In this document: piece by piece, positions 1,642 to 13,924 of the stretch
How positions within the stretch are numbered: the stretch's first letter is position 1
Layout: each line of letters opens with the position of its first letter
Source: Pseudomonadota bacterium
GTDB taxonomy: Bacteria; Desulfobacterota; Binatia; Binatales; Binataceae
NCBI GenBank assembly: GCA_021323945.1
Contig: JAJPKA010000006.1
Coordinates: forward strand, 1 to 64,000
Direction: 5' to 3'
Length of the DNA stretch: 64,000 nucleotides
Made by a program: the position numbers and the translations under genes
The notes under the pieces: generated by a model
What the model was told of the DNA's origin: nothing
What the model saw: the letters and a program-made list of their open reading frames with translations, nothing else
Databases searched by the model: none

Positions 1642-2793
1642 TTAGGGACGCGGCGCCGCCTGTGGAGACTGCATCACCGGCTGACGCATTCGAGCCGGCG
1701 GCATTACTTTCTTGCGCGCGATGGTTAACAATTCGCGCAGTTTCGCGGGGTTGATCGGCTTGTTGAAGATTGCACCTTCCAGTCCTTCCATGCGGCTGCG
1801 CTTGATTATGTGGTCTTTGTCGTAGTAGTAGCCGGTCATGAGAATTACTGGCAGGTTCGGCATTTCCTCCTTGACCCGCAAGTAGAACTCATAACCGTCC
1901 ATTTCGGGCATCACCACATCAGAGATAACGGTATCAATCTTCATGTTGCGCAGGATGCCAAACGCCGCGCTTGGTACGGTTGCGGTATGCACAACGCAGC
2001 GCTCGGCTCTCAAGACGTCAGCGAGGGAGTTCACCACCGACACATCATCGTCCAAAACAAGCACCGACATTCCCGCCAACGGCCATTCCTGTAGGGGGCC
2101 GTCCGCGAGCTGGCACTCTGACGTTTCTGGCTCGGCGCGCGGAGCCAAGTCGGCCATGCGCTTGCCTTTTAGGTAGTCTCGAGTTTCGTAGACACCCTTA
2201 CGCGTCATGTCATCGAGCCGGCGAACGATGGCGTTGACTCTACCAATACAAGCGCGAATCGCACCGAGCCGTTCAGTCTCGACCACCAGCTCTGCGGGCG
2301 TCAGGTGATGTTCGACCGAATGAGTGAGCAGTTCCAAGTGATTGGTAATGGTTTCCAAGGGATTATTGATTTCATGCGCGAGGCTGACGGCGATCTCTCC
2401 GGCCGTAGCTAGCTGCTCCCGCTGGCGCATGCGGCGAATGTCGCGTGCGAAACCGATCGAGCCGATTTCGTTGCCCTGCTCGTCATAAATGAGCGAGCCC
2501 GAGATGGCTACCGGGATTTCCTCGTTGTCCTTGTCTCGCAAGACCGTTTCGAAACTGGAAATGCGCCCACCGTCGGGTGACTCACGCAGCGCTTTCATCA
2601 CCTGGCGTGCGTCGTCCAACGAGCGATAAATCCGGGTTACCTTTTGACCGATGATTTCTTCGGGGGTGAAGCGCAACACTCGTCGAGCGCCATCGTTGTA
2701 GTAGATAATCGTTCCTTCGCGATCGACGGCAATAATGATATCCGGCGAGCTCTCCATCAATCGCTTCAAGTAGTTTTGGTCCAGCGTTAGCAT
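1642..2793 (-). CDS. PAS - histidine-kinase dimerisation - receiver protein lacking the ATPase domain
   Basis: Cytoplasmic two-component-type protein of 383 residues. A PAS domain fills about residues 12-120 (SPDIIIAVDREGTIIYYNDG). It is followed by a HisKA dimerisation helix with the H-box AHEINNPLETI (His about 140). Then, after a short linker, comes a receiver domain from about 241 (VLVLDDD) with the phosphoacceptor in VISDVVMPEMDGYEF (Asp about 292) and the conserved Lys in NKPINPAK. The N, G1 and G2 boxes of the HATPase_c domain are missing: only about 60 residues separate the last HisKA helix from the receiver. It therefore probably cannot phosphorylate itself and may act as a phospho-relay or as the substrate of another kinase. 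ATG at 2793 is chosen because GGGAGG lies upstream and the PAS domain begins soon after. The frame stays open to 2898. Confidence 0.85.
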   Translation of the reverse strand: MLTLDQNYLKRLMESSPDIIIAVDREGTIIYYNDGARRVLRFTPEEIIGQKVTRIYRSLDDARQVMKALRESPDGGRISSFETVLRDKDNEEIPVAISGSLIYDEQGNEIGSIGFARDIRRMRQREQLATAGEIAVSLAHEINNPLETITNHLELLTHSVEHHLTPAELVVETERLGAIRACIGRVNAIVRRLDDMTRKGVYETRDYLKGKRMADLAPRAEPETSECQLADGPLQEWPLAGMSVLVLDDDVSVVNSLADVLRAERCVVHTATVPSAAFGILRNMKIDTVISDVVMPEMDGYEFYLRVKEEMPNLPVILMTGYYYDKDHIIKRSRMEGLEGAIFNKPINPAKLRELLTIARKKVMPPARMRQPVMQSPQAAPRP

Positions 2794-3706
2794 TTTGGGA
2801 CGCGTTTCCTCCCCGCGCTTTTTGGGGCGGTGGGCCGAGGAGTAGTCAGTTTCGATCAGTCGGATTTCTCGAAAGCACCGTCGGCCATTACGCAACAACT
2901 GTATAAGTAGGCGCAGGCAGCTGAGCTGCCGTCGCGCAGGTTATAGGCCCGCAAAGCCCCATTCAATTGGTCCTACGAATTAAATCATACCGAAAATTTC
3001 GAAGCCTATCCTCCCGAATTGTCGGCCACGAAGCTATACTGGATAGGATCGAGGTGGTCCTCCAAACGCAAAGGGGGGATGCGTCTGGATGCTCGCTCGG
3101 TGAGCCATTTAGTCGACATTGTCCAATCCAAACCTCGACCGAGTCGCGCTCCGTGGCCGGCCGCTATCGTACCGTAGCTTTCCGGCAGCTGCTCGAAACG
3201 GCATTTGTATCATCATCCGAACGCGCCGTACCAGCGTCTCGGGCATCCTAATTCCCGTTTACTTCATCTCGACCCGTAGCGCAATCCTGCTAAATTGGCG
3301 CTTGCGGCGTTTTTTTGAGGTGGCTCCTCTCTACCCGCTGTAAGCTGAAGAGACAATAGCCCTCGAACACAAAGCGCGCGAACATGGTTTGACATGAATT
3401 TTTCACGGATTGCAATGCTCTGATGGGCAGCCGCAAGCCCCGCGCTGGAGGTGGAGATCGTGGTGACGAGTCGCGAGTATGCCCCCCTGCAAGCGTTAGG
3501 AGTCGCTCCCGCGACAGTGGGCAAAAGATCCCGGGCGCAGTAATCTATTTGCTCGGATTGGACCGATTCTCACACTGGGAGTTCATTTATAGGGGCAAGA
3601 TGCGGCGCACTACTTTAAAAGCGGCTTATCCAGCCATATGCAAAAAACGATGCCATGTTGCTAAGCTTCCGGCCGTGCACTTACAATTGTGTCCAAGAGG
3701 TAACGA
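2794..3706. other. Long intergenic region before the phospho-signalling island
   Basis: About 900 bases lie between divergent genes. Short frames exist on both strands, but none resembles a known protein or has a good start. A TTGACA at 3389-3394 could be a -35 element reading towards the VWA gene, but no convincing -10 follows at 16-18 bases. No tRNA, repeat array or clear hairpin with a T-run was seen. The region probably holds the promoters for both flanking genes. Confidence 0.3.
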
Positions 3707-5002
3707 ATGGCCGAACCGCTGAGTTTTGACGCACTGGTAAGCAGTCAATACGTGCTCTCGACGGCTGAGAACTTTGTCGTCTACGCGCTGCTCGAGGCGG
3801 TGGCGAAAGGTGGTAGTAGCAACGGCGCACGCTTACCCTTAAACCTGGGAGTAGTGCTGGACCGTTCGGGGTCGATGTACGATGAGCGGCGGCTCGAGTA
3901 TGTGGTCGAAGCCGTAAAATTTCTCGCTGACAACGTTGCGCCCGAAGACCGGGTTGCTGTCATCGCATTCGCCGACAAGGCCCAAGTGATTATTCAGCCG
4001 GATCAGATCCACGATCGGGCAGCGGTCCGTCGCGCGCTGGACGACATCGATTTGCTGGAAATCGGTGGCGGCACCCAGATGGCGCTGGGGATGCTTGCGG
4101 CGATCGAACAAGTCAAACGTAACCTCGCCTCCGATCGCTTGAACCGTGTGCTGGTGTTAACTGACGGTCAAACCTACCAGGAGACCGCTTGTATCGATCT
4201 GGCGAATCAAAATCGCGAACAGATGTCGTTCTCGGCGATGGGTGTGGGAGTCGAGTTTAATGAGAAGCTCCTGATGCGCATCGCGCAGGACTCTCATGGA
4301 AAGTATCACTTTATCGGAAACCCCGAGGAAATACCCAGTATCTTCGAGGACGAATTGTCTGGCTTGCGCGCGGTAACGGTGCGCAATGGCAAAATCGATG
4401 TGACTCTTTCCCAAGGCGTGCAGATCCGCGAGGCCTTTCGCGCCAGTCCTGAGATCTATAGCCTCGGCACGCCATTACTTGAGGATCGCAGAGTCACCTA
4501 TGAAATTGGCGACCTGGAGGCGAATGTCCCGGGTTCAGTCCTGCTTACCTTGGTGCTACCACCTCGGCGACCCGGACCCGTGCGAATCGCTCAGTCGGCC
4601 TTTCGTTACGAAGTCCCGGGAAGCGGCGAGCGAAGTCTCAGCGCCGACGTGACCGTCGAATACTCACTTGACCGCACCCTTGCCAGCAGGCGCAATGCGC
4701 GTGTGATGAACCTGGTTGATCAGGTTTCGATCGCGAAGCTCCAATCCCGAGCCGAAGAGGAGCTTAAGGTGGGTAACGTTGATCGAGCCACCCGCTTGCT
4801 AACCAATGCGATCCAGGGCACCCAACGGCTTGGCAATGTCAAGGCAACCCAAGCGCTGGTCGGCCTGATGGATCAGGTTAAAAAGACGCAAACCTTGCAA
4901 ACCAAAGCGGCCAAAACCACGCTGCTCCAGGCGCAGGCCGTTGTGCGCAAAACCCAGATGCTCGATCCTGAGGCTTTGAAGGACTTGCAGAAAGGCGAAT
5001 AG
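3707..5002 (+). CDS. VWA-domain protein with KTQ-rich C-terminal tail
   Basis: 431-residue protein with a von Willebrand factor A domain at about residues 40-215. The metal-ion-dependent adhesion site starts with DRSGSM (about residue 52) and is completed by a Thr in GGGTQM and the Asp of VLTDGQ. No signal peptide or membrane helix is visible, so it should be cytoplasmic. A beta-rich region follows, then a helical tail with two copies of KTQ-x-L (T394 and T416). The start is supported by GAGG 6 bases upstream of ATG. It is the first gene of a kinase/phosphatase/FHA island. In the TerY-P systems (VWA, kinase, PP2C) such VWA proteins are phosphorylation partners. By inference this tail could be phosphorylated and read by the FHA domains encoded next to it. 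Confidence 0.85.
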   Translation: MAEPLSFDALVSSQYVLSTAENFVVYALLEAVAKGGSSNGARLPLNLGVVLDRSGSMYDERRLEYVVEAVKFLADNVAPEDRVAVIAFADKAQVIIQPDQIHDRAAVRRALDDIDLLEIGGGTQMALGMLAAIEQVKRNLASDRLNRVLVLTDGQTYQETACIDLANQNREQMSFSAMGVGVEFNEKLLMRIAQDSHGKYHFIGNPEEIPSIFEDELSGLRAVTVRNGKIDVTLSQGVQIREAFRASPEIYSLGTPLLEDRRVTYEIGDLEANVPGSVLLTLVLPPRRPGPVRIAQSAFRYEVPGSGERSLSADVTVEYSLDRTLASRRNARVMNLVDQVSIAKLQSRAEEELKVGNVDRATRLLTNAIQGTQRLGNVKATQALVGLMDQVKKTQTLQTKAAKTTLLQAQAVVRKTQMLDPEALKDLQKGE

Positions 5003-5091
5003 TAGTAATGTCGATTTCCGACTGATGCGTGGGGATAACTCGACGGGAAGCGCGACCCGGCGTTCTCCAGACCGGGAGGTGATTTGCACCA

Positions 5092-5796
5092 ATGATAAAA
5101 TGCAGTGAGTGTGGCTACGAAAACATGGATGGTCTCGACTACTGCGATGGATGCGGCGCCAAGCTCGAATCTGTCGCGCCCGGTCCTCATGGCAGCGCCG
5201 AACAGCCACCACCCGCCCCGAGCTCAGCGTCTGTCGGGACCGCTGAAGCCACCACAGCCAACGAGGCGGCGGGTGTTTCCGAGGCCGTTGTGTCAGAACC
5301 CGGTGCGGCTGGTGTTCAGCCGGCAGCGGCGGCCGGGGCTCCGGCAACCTCTCAGGCCGAGCCCTCGAATGAACATGTGGCGGTTATTGAACCATCTGCC
5401 GGAGCAAGTGAGACGCACTCAGCTGCGGCTACGGTCGCACCTACCGGTGCGGCGCCGTTCAAGGCCAAGCTATCTATAATTCGAGGGGGACGGCGCGGTC
5501 AGGAATTCGAATTGGAACCGGGCAATAATCTGGTGGGACGGTGGGACCCCGAAACCGGCGCATTTCCCGAGGTCGACTTAGACGCCGATGACCCTGAGGC
5601 CAAAGTTTCCCGCAAACATGCGTTAATCCGTATCGATTCCGGTCGTATCACGATCGAGGATATCGGTAGTCTGAACGGAACCTACGTTAATCGGCAGCCG
5701 CGGCTGCAGCCGGGCAACCCTGTGGATTTAAAAGACGGCGACGAAATCATCATTGGTAAGACGTTCTTGAAGTTGTCCATCAGCCCGATTTCCTGA
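5092..5796 (+). CDS. Zinc-ribbon FHA-domain protein
   Basis: 234-residue cytoplasmic adaptor. Residues 3-25 form a zinc ribbon with two CxxC pairs (CSECGYENMDGLDYCDGC), followed by about 95 residues of Ala/Pro/Glu-rich linker. The C-terminal part is a forkhead-associated domain (about 125-230) with the phosphothreonine-binding signatures GRWD, SRKHA and DIGSLNGTYVN. FHA domains bind phosphothreonine peptides, so this protein should read the activity of the neighbouring Ser/Thr kinases. GGGAGG lies upstream of ATG 5092. The same zinc-ribbon type opens the pseudokinase-phosphatase protein two genes downstream, which suggests a shared partner or shared origin within the island. Confidence 0.85.
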   Translation: MIKCSECGYENMDGLDYCDGCGAKLESVAPGPHGSAEQPPPAPSSASVGTAEATTANEAAGVSEAVVSEPGAAGVQPAAAAGAPATSQAEPSNEHVAVIEPSAGASETHSAAATVAPTGAAPFKAKLSIIRGGRRGQEFELEPGNNLVGRWDPETGAFPEVDLDADDPEAKVSRKHALIRIDSGRITIEDIGSLNGTYVNRQPRLQPGNPVDLKDGDEIIIGKTFLKLSISPIS

Positions 5797-5827
5797 CGGT
5801 TGCTAACGGGCGCCCAACTGGGCGACG

Positions 5828-7579
5828 GTGCCCCGTAATCGGCGAGAGTTTCAAGCCGTCTGTATGAACACCGGCGAGCCACTTGCCATCGGACACCTGC
5901 TGGATGGCCGATACCGAATCCATAAGTTGCTGGGTATCGGCGGGATGGGACGGGTCTACCTCGCCAACGATACTCGACTCGCAAATCGGCCGGTTGCCGT
6001 CAAGGAGATGATAGTTGGCGATGGAATCCAGGAACGCAAAGCAATCGCAGATTTTCATCGCGAGGCAAGTGTCCTGGCCCGACTATCACATCCAAGCATC
6101 CCACAAATAATCGATTATTTTGACGAACAGGGCCGTCATTATTTGGTGATGGAATATGTTTCGGGCAGCGACCTTCAGCACCAGCTCGATAAAATGGGTC
6201 CGGGCGCGCGATTACCCGAACCGGTGGTGCTGGAAATGGCGCGGCAGTTGCTCGATGTTTTGCAGTTTCTGCATAGCCAACAACCGCCGATCATTTACCG
6301 CGATCTGAAGCCCGCTAATATCATGATCGATCATCACGGGCGTGCGATGCTGGTCGACTTCGGTATCGCCCGGTTTTTGCCCCCAGGGGGACGTGGAACC
6401 CAGATTGGTTCGGTCGGCTATGCGCCACCGGAACAATACCTGGGCCAGATGGAGCCACGCTCGGACCTGTATGCGCTCGCTGCTACAATGCATCACCTGC
6501 TAACGGGTCGCGATCCCCAGTTACAGGCGCCGTTCAGCTTCCCACCACTTAAAGCGCTCGCGCCTGACGTCTCGGCTCAGACTGCTCAGGTGGTAATGGC
6601 CGCGCTCAACAAGGACATGGCGCTCCGACCGGCCTCAGCGCTCGCGATGAGGGATTTATTGCCGAAACCAGCTCCGGGTAATGCGATAGCCGCGAACCCT
6701 CTGATTTCGACAGGGGCAAAGTCGGCAGGCTCGACAGCCACAGTCACGCTCGCTCGCCCTGCCGGATTGTCCCAGACACCCACTCCAAGGTCGCTGGCGA
6801 CCCCACCGTCTCCACCGGCTCTGCCCGGGAACGTTCCGAGACCGTCGGGGATCACGGCGAAGAACGATGCCTGTTCGGTTTCTTCGGCTCAGACTTCCCG
6901 CCCCGATAGACCCTCCACATTTTGTTCCCAAACCTCCGGTGTCGTCGCCGCAGAAAACCTCTCGCCGAGCTCGAAGACGAAAGATCTCGGAATGAGAAAG
7001 TCTGCAGGGTCGCTCGGGGTTAAGATTGGCGGATCACGCGAAGCGGGGAAGGTCCTCGCGCGGGTGGCCGCAGCGCTGGCGTCGATGAGATCGGCAGCGA
7101 CAGCGGGGCCGCTGCGACCTGCTCAAGCGGTCAATACGTCAGCAGCTAAGGACGATGCACCAAACCCAAAGCGTTTAGCCATCGTCGGCCCGCAGGGTTC
7201 AGCGCTCCCGCCAGTGGCTTCCAGCCGTAACGGATTTACACCACACGAAGCTGCGGAGGCGACCGGCGCCAGGTTACTCGCGATTGCAGATGGCTTGCAA
7301 TTCGAAGTATCGGGCAATCGGCTCGTGCTCGGGCGCGGTGGCAGCACAGAGCACGTCGACATTGATTTGTCAAAATTGCGGCGAGGAACCGACTGGATTT
7401 CGCGACGCCACGCCGAAATCATCAAGCAAGGAAACGATTTTTTCGTCCGCGATCTAGGCAGCATCAACGGCACCTACGTGGTTGGCCGTGGCCGTCTCGG
7501 ACGTGATCAACTCTACAAACTGCGGGATCGGGACGAACTGGTTCTGGGTGGTGTTAAGCTTGAATTTCGTCGTTTCTGA
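5828..7579 (+). CDS. Ser/Thr protein kinase with C-terminal FHA domain
   Basis: 583-residue soluble kinase of the PknB (Hanks) type. The catalytic domain covers about residues 25-290: glycine loop LLGIGGMGRVYLA, ATP-binding Lys in VAVKEM, catalytic loop YRDLKPANIMI (Tyr in place of His in HRD), Mg-binding DFGIARF and activation-segment end YAPPEQY. About 190 residues of Pro/Ser/Ala-rich linker lead to a C-terminal FHA domain (about 478-583) with LVLGRGG, ISRRHAEI and DLGSINGTYV. No membrane helix is visible. The kinase looks active and could bind its own phosphorylated linker or partners through the FHA domain. GTG 5828 gives the longest frame; ATG 5864 is equally possible, and neither has a strong ribosome binding site. 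It lies 31 bases after the FHA adaptor gene in the same operon-like row. Confidence 0.9.
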   Translation: MPRNRREFQAVCMNTGEPLAIGHLLDGRYRIHKLLGIGGMGRVYLANDTRLANRPVAVKEMIVGDGIQERKAIADFHREASVLARLSHPSIPQIIDYFDEQGRHYLVMEYVSGSDLQHQLDKMGPGARLPEPVVLEMARQLLDVLQFLHSQQPPIIYRDLKPANIMIDHHGRAMLVDFGIARFLPPGGRGTQIGSVGYAPPEQYLGQMEPRSDLYALAATMHHLLTGRDPQLQAPFSFPPLKALAPDVSAQTAQVVMAALNKDMALRPASALAMRDLLPKPAPGNAIAANPLISTGAKSAGSTATVTLARPAGLSQTPTPRSLATPPSPPALPGNVPRPSGITAKNDACSVSSAQTSRPDRPSTFCSQTSGVVAAENLSPSSKTKDLGMRKSAGSLGVKIGGSREAGKVLARVAAALASMRSAATAGPLRPAQAVNTSAAKDDAPNPKRLAIVGPQGSALPPVASSRNGFTPHEAAEATGARLLAIADGLQFEVSGNRLVLGRGGSTEHVDIDLSKLRRGTDWISRRHAEIIKQGNDFFVRDLGSINGTYVVGRGRLGRDQLYKLRDRDELVLGGVKLEFRRF

Positions 7580-7706
7580 GCGTGGTTGGCGGGTATCAGC
7601 GAAGAATTGTGTGCGGCGGACTGAGGTTGTTTGAGAGGCACGCAATGCGTTCGTTTCAGGATTAGCTGAACTTGGGTCTAGGCGATTGGGAGTACAGCTT
7701 TAGAAC

Positions 7707-9770
7707 ATGATTACATGTCCCGAATGCGGCCAGGACACTGACGACGACGCCAAGTTCTGCGATCGCTGCGGCCAAGGCCTGGCGTCGGGCGTTGAGCATC
7801 AGACAACTAATTTGCTGGCACCGCTGGCGCCCGATACTCAGCTCGCGGGTGGGTATCGCATCACAGCACTGCTCAGTAGTACCGCGCTTGAAAATCGCTA
7901 TCGCGCGATCCGCATCAACGACCAGCAGCTTGTGCAGTTGCGCGAACGAGCTCGACCCTTGTCAGAATTCGCAGGCCACAGCGCCGCCGAAGACTCAGCC
8001 GTCGAAGACCCAGCGGGACCGCGAGCCAAAACTGCAGAACTACGGTTGAACCGTCCAGCCGATTCGGCACCGACACACGGTTCGAGCGAGCATGACCTGC
8101 AGCCTCCACACGTTGACAGTGCTACCGGCAAACAACCCGAAGATAATGGACAGTCTACGACTGCTTCATCTGGTGAGCAAAATGCCGGTCTAATTGAGTC
8201 GAGCGATGATGCCGGCTTCCACTTACTGACTGAAGCAATTGACGAAGCCGATTCCGCCAGCGCTGCGCCGCATGAGACCCTCGCTCTGGAGCCCGCTCCG
8301 CAGGCGGAAAAGATTACTCCTGATGGCAATTCGTCGGCTCAGGATGAAGACAATGATCAACTCCGCCGAGGTGACGACCTGGGCGACGTCTTTGGTCGAG
8401 TTCTGGCACTCTCGATGACGCTCAATCATCCGGCGTTTCAGAAAGCGATAGGAGGCTTTGTTGAAGGCGGCCGCGCGTATCTGGTGTATCCCGATGAGGA
8501 GCTCCAGCCGCTTTCACGGCGTAGCGGCGGGTTGCGAATGGAGGAAAGCGAGGCCTTGCACCTCGCGATTCAAATTTGTCAGGCAGTTAGCTTCATCCAT
8601 CGCCGGGGCCTGAGGGTGAACGACATCTGCCCGGACTCCGTGGCTTATGGTGCTGATCATCGGGTTAAACTGACGAGTCTTGACTATATCAGCAACGATG
8701 ATGAATTGCAGAGTGAGCCAATATTCAATGACGGCTATACTGCGCCTGAAATTTATCGTGGCAAGAAGGCCGACAAACGGGCCGATATCTTCTCGATCGG
8801 GGCTCTGCTTTACAGCTGCATCACAGGTGAGCGGCTCGACAGCGAAAGCTGGCGTGAGGAAGCCGGTCCGATTCGTTTTTATCCCCCTCACGTCGTAACT
8901 CCCGCCTTGGAGCGCGCCATCAGGCGTGCCCTGCAGTTTGACCCCGCTGCGCGATGGCCGAACGTCGACGCCTTTAAAAACGAACTGGTGAAACTGGCAT
9001 CCACCGTCTGTGTACAAGCAGCAGCGCTGACCGACGTCGGCAGGGTGCGCGAGCACAACGAAGATTCGGTCCTGGCATTCGAATGTAGGCACGATTCTCT
9101 GGTCAGCCCCAGGCAAACGTTCCTTTACGCGATCGCTGATGGAATGGGTGGGGCAGAAGCTGGCGAAGTCGCCAGCGCAATTGCGATCCAGACAATCCAG
9201 GATTATGTTGAAGAGAAGCTGGCCGGCTCAGCAAACGTTGAGTTAAGTGCGACTTTGCAAGAAGCCCTCGAACAGGCCAATTCAAAGATAGTCGCTTACC
9301 AAGCTAGCCACCCTGACACTCGCAATATGGGCTCCACCGCGGTAGCCGCCCTGATCGTTCCACCCCAGGCGGCTATTGCCTGGGTGGGTGACAGCCGCGC
9401 GTACATCTTTGATGGGCGCGGTTTGCGACAGCTCAGCAAAGATCACTCATTGGTTCAGCGCCTGATCGAGATCGGCCAGATTTCACCCGAGGAAGCGCGT
9501 CATCACGAACACAAAAACGTGATTACGAGGTCGCTTGGGGCTCGAGCCACCGGGCCAGCGGGCGCCGAGTCAATCTCGATGCGGCTTAGGCGTGGTGACC
9601 GGCTTCTGCTATGTAGTGACGGACTGACAACGCATGTCGAGGATGGGCAGATTGAGGAAATTCTGCGCCGCAATTCCGATTCGGAATCTGCAGCGCTCGA
9701 ATTGGTGGTAGCGGCAAATGCTGGAGGAGGCACCGATAATATCTCCGTGGTGGTTGTAACAGCCCATTGA
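7707..9770 (+). CDS. Zinc-ribbon pseudokinase fused to PP2C-family Ser/Thr phosphatase
   Basis: 687-residue protein in three parts. Residues 4-23 form a zinc ribbon (CPECG, then CDRCG). A kinase-like domain follows, with an acidic, low-complexity insert of about 130 residues splitting its N-lobe. It has lost the glycine loop (LLSSTALENRYRA), the ATP Lys (LVQLRERA) and the Lys and Asn of the catalytic loop (RVNDICPDSVAY, about 300), and reads LDYI where DFG is expected, so it is probably a pseudokinase. From about residue 435 comes a complete PP2C domain with EHNEDS, ADGMGGAEAGE, MGSTAVAAL, WVGDSRAYIF, SDGL and GGTDNISVVVV, keeping all the metal-binding Asp residues. The phosphatase should therefore be active. 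It sits between two intact kinase genes, so it probably reverses their phosphorylation. GGGAG precedes the ATG by about 15 bases. Confidence 0.88.
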   Translation: MITCPECGQDTDDDAKFCDRCGQGLASGVEHQTTNLLAPLAPDTQLAGGYRITALLSSTALENRYRAIRINDQQLVQLRERARPLSEFAGHSAAEDSAVEDPAGPRAKTAELRLNRPADSAPTHGSSEHDLQPPHVDSATGKQPEDNGQSTTASSGEQNAGLIESSDDAGFHLLTEAIDEADSASAAPHETLALEPAPQAEKITPDGNSSAQDEDNDQLRRGDDLGDVFGRVLALSMTLNHPAFQKAIGGFVEGGRAYLVYPDEELQPLSRRSGGLRMEESEALHLAIQICQAVSFIHRRGLRVNDICPDSVAYGADHRVKLTSLDYISNDDELQSEPIFNDGYTAPEIYRGKKADKRADIFSIGALLYSCITGERLDSESWREEAGPIRFYPPHVVTPALERAIRRALQFDPAARWPNVDAFKNELVKLASTVCVQAAALTDVGRVREHNEDSVLAFECRHDSLVSPRQTFLYAIADGMGGAEAGEVASAIAIQTIQDYVEEKLAGSANVELSATLQEALEQANSKIVAYQASHPDTRNMGSTAVAALIVPPQAAIAWVGDSRAYIFDGRGLRQLSKDHSLVQRLIEIGQISPEEARHHEHKNVITRSLGARATGPAGAESISMRLRRGDRLLLCSDGLTTHVEDGQIEEILRRNSDSESAALELVVAANAGGGTDNISVVVVTAH

Positions 9771-9776
9771 ACCCCC

Positions 9777-12152
9777 ATGTCCGACACCAACCAAACCGCC
9801 CTGTCGCCACCGGCTAGTTCTTCCGGACCCCTTGGTTCCGGGGTCATTTTGCAGCAACGATATCGGATCGAGCGTCTGCTGGGTGGCGGCGGAATGGGCA
9901 GGGTCTATCTGGCTCGTGACCAACGCCTGTCCAACCGCCCCTGTGCCATCAAAGAGATGGTCGACCATTTCATCGATCCCCAGCAGCGTCTGGAAGCAAA
10001 CGAATACTTTGCGCGCGAGGCCGATACGCTCGCCCAGCTGAAGCACTCGGCGATTCCGGCTATCACCGACCGCTTTGACCACCAAAACCGTCACTACCTG
10101 GTGATGGAATATGTCGAGGGCCGAAACCTGGAAGAAGAGCTGGTGGCGCGTGGCGGGCCCCTGCCGGAAGGATTGGTCATCGACATCGCGCGCCAGCTGT
10201 GCGATGTCTTGGGCTACTTACACGGCTTGACACCACCAATTATTTACCGTGATCTCAAGCCGTCGAACGTGATGCTCACCTCAAGCGGGAGGGTTGTACT
10301 GGTCGATTTCGGTATAGCCCGCCTGTTCAAGGCGCAGCGTAAGGGCACAATGATTGGTACGCTCGGCTTTGCGCCGCCCGAGCAGTATCAAGGAATCGCC
10401 GATCCGCGCAGCGACCTCTACTCACTGGGCGCCACACTACATTACATTCTGACGGGTCGCGACCCGGAAAAATTCCCGCCCTTCAGTTTTCCACCAGTAC
10501 GCGAGCTGCGACCAGGTGTCTCCAGTAATTTGGCTGGTGCGATCGATCGCGCACTTAGTTACGAGATGGCCGACCGCCCTGCGAATGTCCAGGAATTCCG
10601 CGACATGCTGCTTTATGGGCGCGGATTGGGTACTGGAATTCGCCAGGTGAGTTCTCGCGGTGGGACTGCTGGCCTGACCATCCGGCCCAGACCGCCAGAA
10701 GACGATGACTTTGCTCCACCCCTCCCGCACCTGAAGAAGAGCGCGATGCGACGCGCTGCCGGGTGGTTGGCAACTCTAATCGTGCTTGCAGGTATCGCGT
10801 TCGGCGCGACCTATGTCTACAACGATCCTGACCTGCAACGTCAATTGGGGGTAACCGAATACATCAACCAATTGCCGTGGAAGCGTGCCGAGCTGATCGC
10901 GAAAGCCCGCGCTCGACCCTTGGTGTTCAAGAATCTGTCACTTTGTTTATCCACGCGCTCGGGCGAACCAGTCAGCGGGCCCAGAACCACTTTCACCGAT
11001 ACCGAACTGTCAAGCAATCGATATCTGAAATGGCAAGCGTCGTTTAAAAATGCATTGGCCGGTTTAGACAGTCAACAGAGTCACATCGAAGCTCGAATTT
11101 TCGATCCCAAAGGCGTCGAGATCGCGAAAAGCGACGATCAGCAGTTCATAGGGCCTGCTCAAACCGCCGTTGATTTCAGTGGAGTGGCGATGATGCCTGA
11201 TACGGGCAGCGTCGCGATTGGTAATTACAAAATCGCGCTGTATTCCTCCGACCAGTTACTTGGGCAACAACAATTTTCAGTCTCAGAAGATCTCGCCGCC
11301 AAAGCGGCTGCAGCCCGTGCCAAAGCTGAAGCCGCCGCCGCAGCGCGAGCCGCAGAAGCTCGACGCGAGGAAGAGGCTCGGCGAATTGCGATGCTGCAGG
11401 AACGAATGCGTCGGCCGCTGCAACTCCAACAAATTGTCTTTCTCAACACCACCAAGGACGGAACCGCTCTCTCCTCACCGACCACTGTCTTTAGTCTGTC
11501 GAAAGTTTTGTTCGTTGGATGGCGAGTGACCTTTACCAATCGCCTCTATGGCCTGAATAGCAATCGCTATGAGGTGGACGCGGCATACGTGGCGCCGGAC
11601 GGTAGTACGCTTGGCAGCGTTCAGGATGTACAGGTGGTCAGCGCCAACGATCCGCGCGTGGTGTTCACTGGCCGAGTTGGAAACTCGGCAGGCGGTGCCT
11701 TTTTGCCCGGAAAATACACTGTCAACTTTTATCTTAACGGCCAGTACTTCGCCAAGAAGAGTTTCACCGTTGTCAATGACGCTGGCATTCCTTATGCCGG
11801 TGCCGGGGGGACAGTGGCGAGCAGCGCCCCGTCTTCCAACGCAATCGGACTCGAGATGCCGTTGCTCGCCAGCGGTACAATTCAAGGCTTAGCCGGCCAT
11901 GATTCCCTACCGATGGAACTGCGCCTGCGACCGCAGCCTAACGGTTTTTTACACGGTGAGATGGTAGTACATCTGAGCGGCTATGGCGTTACCCCGCTGG
12001 AAGGCTTCGTCCGCGGTAATCGACTCCAGTTCGAAGTCCCTTACGGGGCGGATACGTTCTTCTTCGAGGGACGACGCGATCGCGATTTGCTCAGCGGTAC
12101 ATTCCACTCCAACACCGGCCAGTCTGGCAGCTGGGAAACTCATGCTGATTGA
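9777..12152 (+). CDS. Transmembrane Ser/Thr protein kinase with duplicated extracytoplasmic region
   Basis: 791-residue receptor-like kinase. The cytoplasmic kinase domain (about 28-275) is intact: LLGGGGMGRVYLA, AIKEM, YRDLKPSNVML, VDFGIARL and FAPPEQY. After a Pro-rich stretch there is one membrane helix (about 328-350, WLATLIVLAGIAFGATYV). The outer part holds two similar beta-rich units (about 376-502 and 545-672), each ending in a G-(N/K)-Y-(K/T) strand and an F-(S/T)-V strand. A charged Ala/Arg/Glu helix (about 503-545) separates them, and a further beta-rich unit follows (about 680-791). No PASTA repeats are present. It starts 6 bases after the phosphatase gene, so the pair is probably co-translated. 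The outer region is the likely signal input of the island; its ligand is unknown. Confidence 0.88.
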   Translation: MSDTNQTALSPPASSSGPLGSGVILQQRYRIERLLGGGGMGRVYLARDQRLSNRPCAIKEMVDHFIDPQQRLEANEYFAREADTLAQLKHSAIPAITDRFDHQNRHYLVMEYVEGRNLEEELVARGGPLPEGLVIDIARQLCDVLGYLHGLTPPIIYRDLKPSNVMLTSSGRVVLVDFGIARLFKAQRKGTMIGTLGFAPPEQYQGIADPRSDLYSLGATLHYILTGRDPEKFPPFSFPPVRELRPGVSSNLAGAIDRALSYEMADRPANVQEFRDMLLYGRGLGTGIRQVSSRGGTAGLTIRPRPPEDDDFAPPLPHLKKSAMRRAAGWLATLIVLAGIAFGATYVYNDPDLQRQLGVTEYINQLPWKRAELIAKARARPLVFKNLSLCLSTRSGEPVSGPRTTFTDTELSSNRYLKWQASFKNALAGLDSQQSHIEARIFDPKGVEIAKSDDQQFIGPAQTAVDFSGVAMMPDTGSVAIGNYKIALYSSDQLLGQQQFSVSEDLAAKAAAARAKAEAAAAARAAEARREEEARRIAMLQERMRRPLQLQQIVFLNTTKDGTALSSPTTVFSLSKVLFVGWRVTFTNRLYGLNSNRYEVDAAYVAPDGSTLGSVQDVQVVSANDPRVVFTGRVGNSAGGAFLPGKYTVNFYLNGQYFAKKSFTVVNDAGIPYAGAGGTVASSAPSSNAIGLEMPLLASGTIQGLAGHDSLPMELRLRPQPNGFLHGEMVVHLSGYGVTPLEGFVRGNRLQFEVPYGADTFFFEGRRDRDLLSGTFHSNTGQSGSWETHAD

Positions 12153-12183
12153 GACGGTGAGATAGCCCCACACAATTGAGGGA

Positions 12184-13056
12184 ATGGCTACCAACGTATC
12201 TCGCGAGAAGCTGTTGTTTTATGCGATAGCGGGTGGGCTCGGTGGACTGGGCGCATGGGCCGCGGCTGAGCCTTTCATGGGTATTCGAAGCCCCTGGGCC
12301 CGAGATCTCATACTTGGGGCAATTGTTGGTCTATTCATCGCTTCCTTTCTTGCCTCTATTGAGGCTCTCAGCGTCGGCCAATGGCGGCAAGTCGCGCGTG
12401 GTGTGAAATGGGGCGCAATCATCGGGATTTTTGGGGGGGCTGTGGCCTTGGTGCTTGCCGAAGCAGCGTTCGATGTTCTGGGCGGTCTCAACGGGCGAAT
12501 CCTCGGTTGGGGTGTGGGCGGACTGCTGGTCGGACTCGGAGTAGGCTCCGCCACCCGCTCTAACGCTCGACGTCGCAACGGTGCGATCGGGGGAATGGTG
12601 GGTGGAGCACTGGGTGGCCTTTGCTACCAGGCCCTGACGGTTACTTTCCCCCAGGCTTTCGGTCGCGCGATCGCCATAGTTATCTTAGGTGCACTGATTG
12701 GTTTCTTCATCGGATTGGTGAGCGAATTGCTCAAGCGCGGATGGCTCATGGTCGTGCGGAGTCAGAGCCGCAACGCTCGCGAAGGACGCGAGTATCCGCT
12801 CACGAAACCCGTAACGGTCGTTGGACGGGCGGAGGAAAGCGATATCGGCCTGTTCGGTGACCCGACAGTGCTCGCGCGTCATGCGATCTTTCGCAACGAG
12901 GGCAGAACTTTCTTCGTGAGCCCGACCAGTGGTGCTCAGGTTTTTGTTAATCGCCAGCCAGTGCACGGGCGATATGCTTTAAAGAGTGGCGATCGCGTCG
13001 AAGTGGGTGGGACGCTGTTTTTGTTCCGTGAACGCACTCAAGCACCGCAAAGTTAG
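12184..13056 (+). CDS. Glycine-rich membrane protein with cytoplasmic FHA domain
   Basis: 290 residues. The first 190 are Gly/Ala-rich and hydrophobic with about five to six membrane segments (for example LGAIVGLFIASFLASI and ALGGLCYQALTV), and small-residue packing like Gly-zipper proteins. After a basic stretch, an FHA domain occupies about 200-288 (VVGRAEESDIGL, LARHAIF, QVFVNRQPV). The third FHA domain of the island is thus tied to the inner membrane and could recruit a phosphorylated partner there. SRRHA and SLNGT are less well conserved here than in the other two, so phosphothreonine binding may be weaker. It begins 31 bases after the membrane kinase. Confidence 0.8.
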   Translation: MATNVSREKLLFYAIAGGLGGLGAWAAAEPFMGIRSPWARDLILGAIVGLFIASFLASIEALSVGQWRQVARGVKWGAIIGIFGGAVALVLAEAAFDVLGGLNGRILGWGVGGLLVGLGVGSATRSNARRRNGAIGGMVGGALGGLCYQALTVTFPQAFGRAIAIVILGALIGFFIGLVSELLKRGWLMVVRSQSRNAREGREYPLTKPVTVVGRAEESDIGLFGDPTVLARHAIFRNEGRTFFVSPTSGAQVFVNRQPVHGRYALKSGDRVEVGGTLFLFRERTQAPQS

Positions 13057-13171
13057 ACTGGCCAGCCGCTTGAACACTCCGTGTAAAAGTTCTTTGCATC
13101 TGGTCACCGGCCGCTCGCGCAACGCGCCCTGGGATGACAGCGGCTGCAGACGGCTCCCAATCGAGCAGCTT

Positions 13172-13924
13172 TTGCAGCTTCTCAGCTGCGCCGTGTCGGG
13201 ATTTGTCTTGGTTATGTTGGCCAGTTCGTGCGCTTCCACCAGCGAACGAATGGAGCCGCTGAGCTCCGTCCAGACTTTGCAGTATTATCCATACCTGGTC
13301 AAAGGGTATGAGAATACGTATCCCAAGCGGCGTGTGATGGTCTTGAGCGCAGTTGACGCACGCGATTTCAAGGATAACTCGGGTGCCGCTCATACGGCCA
13401 ACAACGGAAATCCGGCAATCGGCGTGGTTCGTGACAAAAGCGGCGAAATCCTTCAACGCCTCTATGGTCCGCGCCTGGAACCTTTGGTGCAGGATTCAAT
13501 CGCCCAAGCCGCGAGGGAAGCCGGAATGATGTCCTTTACCTCGAATGTGCCTCTACGCGAGGCCCTGAGCTCCCGCCAGGCTGAATACGTAATCTATCCC
13601 AAGATCGCCCGCTTTTGGGTAGATAAGCACCGTGGACCTGACAACCCTGGGGGAGCGACATGGTTTGCTACTGCCGAGGTCGCGCTGGACGTAGTGGTCT
13701 ATAAAGCACCTTTCGACGTTCCGTTCTGGCAGGGTGAAAGTGACGCCACTTATGACGACCCACCTCCTCCGGTCGCTGGCGTGGTTCCGCAAGACGAAAC
13801 TGAGATTTACGACGACCCCGGCCAGGTTCTCTCCGTTGGCCTCACGCGGGCAGCGGCGGGCATCTTCAAGCGTCAAGATCTGCGCACGCTCATTGCCGAA
13901 GATTCGGTCACCCCGCATCAGTAA
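13172..13924 (+). CDS. Predicted lipoprotein closing the phospho-signalling island
   Basis: The frame contains a hydrophobic segment ending in a lipobox (VLVMLASSC), so the product is probably a lipoprotein of about 230 residues after processing. I do not recognise the family. The body has alternating beta/alpha character with several Tyr and Pro residues, and a helical segment PLVQDSIAQAAREAG. The start is uncertain: TTG 13172 puts the Cys at residue 20, TTG 13094 and an ATG at 12986 inside the FHA gene are also in frame, and none has a good ribosome binding site. It follows the membrane FHA gene closely on the same strand and is the last gene of the row. By position it could be a partner of the kinase outer region. 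Confidence 0.6.
   Translation: MQLLSCAVSGFVLVMLASSCASTSERMEPLSSVQTLQYYPYLVKGYENTYPKRRVMVLSAVDARDFKDNSGAAHTANNGNPAIGVVRDKSGEILQRLYGPRLEPLVQDSIAQAAREAGMMSFTSNVPLREALSSRQAEYVIYPKIARFWVDKHRGPDNPGGATWFATAEVALDVVVYKAPFDVPFWQGESDATYDDPPPPVAGVVPQDETEIYDDPGQVLSVGLTRAAAGIFKRQDLRTLIAEDSVTPHQ

Follow-up and report, generated by a model that had tools for sequence, protein, structure and literature searches.

Bacterial gene clusters that combine vWA, FHA, kinase and PP2C genes have so far had no understood logic. What, then, might such a cluster do? An example lies in the first 64,000 nucleotides of contig 14 (116 kb) of a Binataceae genome (3.74 Mb, 95.5% complete); this whole stretch is the window analysed here. 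All seven open reading frames of the cluster, A to G, are present on the plus strand between positions 3707 and 13924. Searches of Pfam and NCBIfam found a vWA domain in A, an FHA domain in B, a kinase and an FHA domain in C, a zinc ribbon, a degenerate kinase and a PP2C phosphatase in D, a kinase in E and, behind a glycine-rich membrane part, an FHA domain in F; G has no family in either library. We call the row an operon because of its common strand, its spacing and its conserved order, which are the sole grounds, as predicted promoters (3 vs a mean of 4.6 in shuffled sequences) and terminators (10 vs a mean of 12.5) gave no excess. We put the probability that this operon is an envelope-linked phosphothreonine switch working like archaeal ArnA-ArnB at roughly 60%.

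The likeness to archaea begins with protein A (3707 to 5002, plus strand; 431 residues), an ArnB-like vWA protein by domain matches, structural model and alignment. The residues of its metal ion-dependent adhesion site (D52, S54, S56, T123 and D153) are invariant. The AlphaFold model (predicted local distance difference test score 82.5) has a beta-sandwich split by the vWA domain, helices at 331-416 and a low-confidence end. Foldseek placed 4fx5, the ArnB of 8S05 and ArnE (5a8j) at the top of the PDB matches, aligned over nearly the full length; the TM scores are 0.68/0.76 for 8s05_A and 0.60/0.70 for 5a8j, and A has the three-domain architecture of ArnB. Sec24 and Sec23 chains come lower in the same list, a likeness also named in the title of 8S05. 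A and 8s05_A match in sequence as well (3.8e-10).

Protein B (5092 to 5796, plus strand; 234 residues) consists of a zinc ribbon, a linker and a canonical FHA domain, and is ArnA-like by domain and PDB matches. Its ribbon (5101 to 5163, plus strand) has two CxxC pairs in 35/35 sequences and weakly matches Pfam zinc ribbons, and the GR, SRxHA and NG motifs of its FHA domain are kept in all 34 rows that cover them, including the window. In the FHA core, 39 residues of B match 8s05_C (3.1e-11), and ArnA (5a8i) is matched at about the same level. The two genes are neighbours wherever the sequence extends past A, in 28 loci of Binataceae (f1) and nine of a more distant, sister family (f5). According to two papers on the archaeal system, the zinc finger of ArnA binds unphosphorylated ArnB, the kinase ArnC phosphorylates threonines in the helical bundle of ArnB, and the FHA domain of ArnA binds afterwards (PMC12852372, PMC6509490). 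The helical domain of ArnB is described there as a substrate of Hanks kinases in Sulfolobus, and bacterial proteins with ArnB architecture are noted, with no bacterial ArnA-like partner described in the sections consulted (PMC12852372).

In the tail of A, five threonines (T362, T381, T394, T404 and T416; 4790 to 4963, plus strand) are invariant in all 37 aligned sequences, each with an invariant leucine at +3; the three other invariant threonines, in the vWA domain, have no invariant leucine at this position. Bacterial FHA domains often prefer a hydrophobic residue at +3 from the phosphothreonine. The final units of the tail are KTQTL, KTTLL and KTQML. Similar Thr-x-x-Leu (TxxL) sites stand singly, on the plus strand, in the enzymes of the operon. 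The linker of C contains the block S-x-T-A-K-T-x-x-L (SKTKDL in the window, 6977 to 6988), with T371 and L374 in 23/23 sequences; the linker is otherwise poorly conserved apart from a few single columns such as P305. The linker of D reads A-[KP]-T-x-x-L in Binataceae (AKTAEL in the window, 8031 to 8042), with T109 and L112 in 22/22 sequences and the lysine in 20 of the 22. E has its site (TAGL, 10665 to 10676) between the kinase and the transmembrane helix, with T297 and L300 in 26/26 (20 f1 and six f5).

A hydrophobic residue at Thr +3 exceeds all 300 shuffles in all five regions compared, barely so in D, and none of the 12 offsets is stronger than +3 in any of them. Serine showed no excess over background, except for a slight one in E (0.22 vs 0.18). 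As the sequences are related by descent, this test sets a lower bar than independent evidence. On the sequences compared, the recurrence of the tail motif in other lineages is the stronger point. At least four T..[LIVM] occur in the last 75 residues of 10/10 vWA proteins from such modules, of which eight belong to other phyla; in vWA proteins outside modules the number is 0 or 1 (5/5). The units read KTISL, KTMRL and KTQTL in Deinococcus, KTRKI, KTVKM and KTVKM in Nostoc, and GTKKL and GTRKL in one further family of the same phylum (f43); Deinococcus and cyanobacterial tails keep three KTxx[LIM] units despite only 25-32% identity.

Are the enzymes intact? C (5864 to 7579, plus strand) is a Hanks kinase followed by a linker of about 200 residues and an FHA domain. 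Its Lys, YRD and DFG are retained in 23/23 sequences, and its FHA domain is canonical in the window, with SxxH and NG each kept in 22/23 sequences. E (9777 to 12152, plus strand; 791 residues) is likewise an intact Hanks kinase (Lys, YRD and DFG in 26/26) and a predicted membrane protein, with a transmembrane helix and an ectodomain predicted to contain two Ig/FnIII-like domains and a C-terminal beta domain. The 50 Foldseek matches listed for this ectodomain are tandem-domain folds of a generic kind, with RbmA and complement proteins at the top (query TM scores 0.15-0.19), and we therefore propose no ligand. D (7707 to 9770, plus strand; 687 residues) begins with a zinc ribbon (7716 to 7778, plus strand) of the same general type as in B. 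Its kinase-like part has lost DFG in 30/30 sequences and lacks HRDxK in the 24 of 30 rows displayed, and its PP2C motifs are intact in every aligned row covering them. D scores above the curated Stp1/IreP cut-off (241.5 vs 230 bits).

The membrane layer is completed by F (12184 to 13056, plus strand; 290 residues), predicted to be a membrane protein with a glycine-rich part of several transmembrane helices and an FHA fold, and by the predicted lipoprotein G (13172 to 13924, plus strand, with an uncertain start). The FHA fold of F keeps GR in 23/23 sequences. It may be no phosphothreonine reader, because the serine of SxxH (H-3) is missing in 23/23 and NR replaces NG in the 19 of 23 rows displayed, and we do not count it as a proven one. 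F-like paralogues with 34-42% identity occur in at least 39 of the 41 f1 genomes. Elsewhere in the same genome, a kinase with a zinc ribbon adjoins an F-like transmembrane protein that carries a pair of FHA domains, the second of them canonical (L127, G000:C22:70001-82000, at 3300-6696 on the minus strand).

An earlier, sequence-only reading of this DNA had named two intact Hanks kinases, a pseudokinase-PP2C protein and two proteins sharing one zinc-ribbon type, and all of these stand. Its three FHA readers are reduced to two canonical ones, B and C, with F in doubt. It named the right domain classes, but its list of genes added up to eight instead of seven, with C entered under both the kinases and the FHA proteins. 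It overlooked the ArnA-ArnB precedent, the TxxL sites and the doubtful pocket of F.

To what extent is the gene row conserved? We compared 38 loci from relatives, which are metagenome assemblies labelled, for example, Candidatus Binataceae, Binatia, Binatota or Deltaproteobacteria; 29 were assigned to f1 and nine to f5 by their vWA identity (71-90% vs 57-60%). The order A-G is found in all 17 f1 loci that reach past G, among which C is split in two frames in L041 and L075 starts inside A; the other 12 stop sooner at contig ends. In f5, the order is A-B-D-E-F in the five loci reaching past F (L071, L072, L073, L076 and L077) and identical as far as the other four extend, with D interrupted by a stop in L068. 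C and G were found in 0/9 f5 loci. An FHA-matching open reading frame lies downstream of F in L071, L072 and L073. That of L073 (6709-8451), a separate gene after F, reads as a secreted-looking vWA domain, a transmembrane helix and an FHA domain, and a protein of this kind is fused to F in L125 (2194-4608, G449) and L126 (2120-4549, G448). It is as if one envelope part replaced another in the same place, this protein in f5 and lipoprotein G in Binataceae.

Among 148 genomes of the class, 50 have a match to A at E<=1e-20, strong in 48 (37 f1 and 11 f5) and weak in two (G470 and G495); no other module gene lies within 20 kb of the weak match in G470 (L110). The pseudokinase-PP2C part of D is matched at E<=1e-60 in 49 (39 f1 and 10 f5), and F at E<=1e-20 in 53 (41 f1 and 12 f5), where G022 and G031 have a paralogue-level match only and G437 a fragment at a contig end. 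D and F at those limits occur in none of the class genomes outside f1 and f5, and strong matches to A, D and F are all confined to these two families. By a manual count of the listed rows the families comprise 41 (f1) and 16 (f5) genomes. Misses in f1 are A in G451, G032, G031 and G005, and D in G031 and G010; in f5 they are A in G442-G446, D in the same five and G437, and F in G442-G445. Both the single-strand row with its conserved order and the co-occurrence of the vWA and pseudokinase-PP2C genes, which the sequence-only reading had proposed to check, are thus borne out.

The module is also found outside the class. We sampled 395 genomes evenly across the phylum, and 17 of them contain A at E<=1e-20: six f1, two f43 (G122, at 7e-67, and G086) and nine at 1.5e-30 to 7e-21. 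G122 has a single 8-kb contig with D, A and B, together with an F-like fusion and the beginning of a kinase, and G086 has the same module parts at two places. No other module gene was seen in the four of the nine weaker genomes that were inspected (G107, G229, G327 at two places, and G431). The vWA gene of G086 lies in two halves about 142 kb apart (L100 and L101, G086:C1, at about 497 kb and 639 kb), both adjoining part of the module and running into N, which may reflect faulty assembly, a rearrangement or masking of the sequence.

Searching plasmids with A by tblastn matched 170 records, and we inspected the neighbourhoods of 13 drawn from the best 25 of these. In all eight where the match extends into the helical domain (query residue 384 or beyond), FHA and PP2C genes are adjacent, and a kinase is adjacent in seven; none was seen in the eighth (Trichormus), which lies at the record end. 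The FHA gene of Nostoc sp. ATCC 53789 is unannotated and was read directly in the DNA. Further long-match records (H8, H10 and H11) were left out of this count. No such neighbours are annotated in the five inspected records whose match ends at residue 240-275. Binatia profiles matched the eight plasmid sets at 7e-35 to 6e-46 (vWA), 3e-13 to 8e-27 (FHA) and 1e-41 to 4e-48 (PP2C). Five vWA proteins outside modules also reached 1e-32 to 3e-37, mostly across the vWA domain; because these E-values overlap, module vWA proteins are told apart by coverage of the helical domain and tail and by their neighbours.

The plasmid proteins also resemble those of the window in architecture. FHA proteins read in seven of the records begin with two CxxC pairs (the gene of D. 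radiodurans, on plasmid 3 of isolate DRR11, reads as split in two frames), and a degenerate kinase-like part was recognised, by eye or by profile, in all eight PP2C proteins. The Nostoc order vWA-FHA-PP2C-kinase equals A-B-D-E. F-like proteins occur in three of the five cyanobacterial records, four of the five such proteins being fused to a vWA-like part; the match is partly due to glycine-rich composition, and the FHA-like end is degenerate. F had no match in the stretches examined from two Nostoc and three Deinococcus records, and G is not annotated in the plasmid stretches inspected. Gloeothece encodes a kinase-FHA protein like C, which is otherwise absent from the inspected plasmid sets. 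On this sequence evidence, the core is made up of A, B, D and a kinase, and F is frequent. C and G are marked as Binataceae additions, since both are absent from f5 and, the C-like protein of Gloeothece apart, from the inspected plasmid sets.

The sequence-only reading had called the row a self-contained transmembrane relay and an island. The row of writer, eraser and reader with a membrane layer (E, F and G) is there, but 'island' and 'self-contained' fail because the core of vWA, FHA, pseudokinase-PP2C and kinase recurs in other phyla; the window therefore holds a wider module as elaborated in Binataceae by the addition of C and G. A relay would be one way to describe the steps proposed below.

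Two sets of plasmid genes near the modules deserve mention. In the Gloeothece, Trichormus and Tolypothrix plasmids (L116 505-2999, L118 1189-3548 and L119 1-1595), a gene of the ARC6/PARC6 family and one for a serine hydrolase lie upstream of the modules, which may hint at an output in the envelope or in division. In Deinococcus, two genes annotated as beta-helix repeat proteins (L112 13590-16646 and L117 11744-13021) hold a kinase domain near the start, the latter together with a zinc ribbon, so that the modules there include a second kinase, to which a large additional domain is attached.

How might the parts work together? Gene content, order, co-occurrence, architecture and conserved sites are established here; from these and from the archaeal precedent we infer the following steps of phosphorylation and binding. 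A, with its vWA domain, beta-sandwich and helical bundle, would be the phosphorylated hub. E would sense at the envelope through its Ig/FnIII-like domains and, perhaps with help from C, phosphorylate the TxxL threonines of the A tail and of the linkers of C, D and E. B would pre-dock on A through its zinc ribbon, as ArnA does on ArnB, and its FHA domain would then clamp the phosphorylated tail. C, combining kinase and FHA domain, could both read and write, binding partners that are already phosphorylated and spreading the signal. D would erase the phosphates, positioned on the complex by its dead kinase and zinc ribbon, and F and lipoprotein G would anchor the complex in the membrane and transmit an envelope signal. 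The output would be the state of the A-B complex, with a target outside the operon.

The same plan may be a general bacterial phosphothreonine switch in at least Binatota, Deinococcota and Cyanobacteriota, and here we regard the odds as even. Such a switch would comprise a three-domain vWA hub with repeated KTxx[LIM] sites in its tail, a zinc-ribbon-FHA reader, a reset by a pseudokinase-guided PP2C and, in several lineages, a transmembrane anchor with a degenerate FHA domain. In Binataceae, the single TxxL tags on the enzymes would let the whole apparatus assemble on phosphorylation.

Several observations weigh against a switch on the archaeal plan. B and ArnA match over no more than about 40 residues in the core of the FHA domain; OdhI (1.5e-13) and GarA match B as well or better. 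Neither A nor its tail matched the ArnB C-terminal domain (IPR040929), a model that we take to be in Pfam, at E-values up to 1. The D linker site is absent from f5 (0/8), and a TGE[IL] element in B is missing in 9/26 f1 sequences, including the window, and in all nine from f5. Offsets other than +3 also stand out: -3 is enriched in A (0.42 vs 0.54 at +3), +6 equals +3 in C, and +2 equals +3 in D, where the excess is small (0.22 vs a shuffle maximum of 0.21). The array in A lies partly in predicted helices, where a leucine at +3 may serve helix packing. The FHA fold of F lacks the pocket serine, and no output gene was found. Finally, the fastest sites of ArnB (T353, T363 and T375; PMC12852372) are not clearly TxxL.

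Perhaps the contacts matter more than the switch. Multivalent TxxL/FHA contacts could form a membrane condensate or scaffold in which enzymes and membrane proteins cluster, so that clustering at the envelope, rather than the A-B complex, is the function. This idea, which is unlikely, fits the TxxL sites of four proteins (A, C, D and E), the FHA domains of three (B, C and F) and the predicted membrane location of E and F. The degenerate pocket of F and the lack of a D site throughout f5 speak against it. Scaffold and switch overlap as readings, and the sequence does not separate them.

The TerY-P triad consists of a vWA protein, a kinase and a PP2C phosphatase, and the operon could be a stress triad of this type with acquired FHA proteins, the vWA protein being a metal or stress scaffold and not an ArnB-like phospho-hub. 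All three classes are present, and A is weakly similar to the vWA-TerF-like model, with a score of 23.9 bits that falls below the cut-off of 29.4 (TerY was not among the models compared). Linkage of kinase, PP2C and vWA genes is reported in actinobacterial systems (PMC7159879). On the other side, TerD has no match in the genome (other ter families were not searched), the fold of A has three domains and its TxxL tail is conserved, and FHA genes are neighbours in 8/8 long-match plasmid records inspected. We consider this explanation improbable.

Could the TxxL sites simply be structural, packing helices in A and arising by chance in the linkers, in a generic PknB-type stress pathway without a vWA-FHA switch? 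The enrichment at -3 and the largely helical prediction for the tail array of A, together with the small excess in D, would fit. Against this, threonine and leucine are kept in 23/23 and 26/26 sequences in the poorly conserved linkers of C and E, and Deinococcus and cyanobacterial tails retain their three units at low identity, so we think this quite improbable. A regulator of a type VI or other secretion system, PpkA-PppA-Fha-like and with its machine elsewhere, has the same enzyme and reader classes and a weak TagH FHA similarity (42.1 bits vs a cut-off of 120.25) in its favour, but is highly improbable given that the sheath protein VipB has no match in this nearly complete genome (other tss families and other secretion systems were not searched for) and that none of the genes around the related plasmid cores inspected is annotated for secretion.

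Some details of the locus remain to be given. Judged from its frame read against orthologues, C probably begins at ATG 5864 rather than GTG 5828. With this start for C and 13172 for G, the intergenic gaps from A to G measure 89, 67, 127, 6, 31 and about 115 bases. The start of G is uncertain; its open reading frame spans 12986-13924, and TTG 13172 is likeliest by frame, with the lipobox ASSC. About 800 bases separate A from a divergent gene outside the module (1642 to 2898, minus strand), which begins at 2898 and encodes, by domain search, a PAS-HisKA-receiver protein with an H-box, in which no HATPase domain was found. Such a gene is the divergent neighbour in 22 of the 29 f1 loci; none lies within 10 kb in L061 and L063, and the remaining five have less than 2.4 kb of upstream sequence. 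A histidine kinase without its own ATPase may accept phosphate from another kinase.

If the ArnA-ArnB-like switch is real, a mechanism known from archaeal motility applies across bacterial phyla, the exact threonines, partners and reset enzyme are predicted, and the pseudokinase-phosphatase fusion gains a probable job. The question could then be tested directly in culturable relatives among cyanobacteria and Deinococcus.

How does the operon compare with known systems? A defence-system reading was rejected: the PADLOC matches (PD-T4-6, Mad6 and others) of C, D and E go back to the kinase domain and are unspecific, and A, B, F and G have no PADLOC match. The threonine-phosphorylation pathway of type VI secretion, PpkA-PppA-Fha, is made of a kinase, a PP2C phosphatase and an FHA reader; the classes are the same, whereas here there is a vWA hub and no sheath gene was found, in a VipB search whose control was positive in 1/14 (E. 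coli). The TerY-P triad shares three domain classes with the operon and differs by the FHA readers, the ArnB-like vWA protein and the absence of a TerD match here; the earlier statement that no ter or tss genes lie nearby holds genome-wide for the families searched, TerD and VipB. The PASTA kinase operon (PknB/PstP/FhaA/FhaB type) is not what we see, as C and E score 202.7 and 188.7 bits against NF033483 (cut-off 450) and their best stretch is limited to the N-terminal kinase region. OdhI/GarA switches are the best PDB matches of B, which differs by its zinc ribbon and vWA neighbour and scores 56 against NCBIfam OdhI (cut-off 200). Among the papers listed in the literature searched, outside which most subscription papers fall, none deals with a bacterial module of vWA, zinc-ribbon-FHA and pseudokinase-PP2C proteins, which is weak evidence of novelty.

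ArnA-ArnB of Sulfolobus acidocaldarius (8S05) differs in having PP2A instead of a PP2C with a pseudokinase, and a RanBP2-type finger instead of a zinc ribbon. Here, the system is bacterial with no known motility link, the kinases, phosphatase and membrane parts stand in one gene row, and the tail motif is TxxL. The module is proposed to work like ArnA-ArnB by analogy and is not filed as a member, because it has no match to the ArnB C-terminal model and the phosphatase differs. The likeness lies in the plan: as described in PMC12852372 and PMC6509490, ArnB shares with A the vWA domain, the split beta-sandwich and a helical bundle with clustered threonines, ArnA has an N-terminal zinc finger and a C-terminal FHA domain as B does, and both systems use Hanks-type kinases. 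The archaeal genes have consecutive locus numbers (Saci_1210/1211), and those of A and B are likewise adjacent. Each piece is thus of a known kind; what appears new is a cross-phylum module with precise candidate sites.

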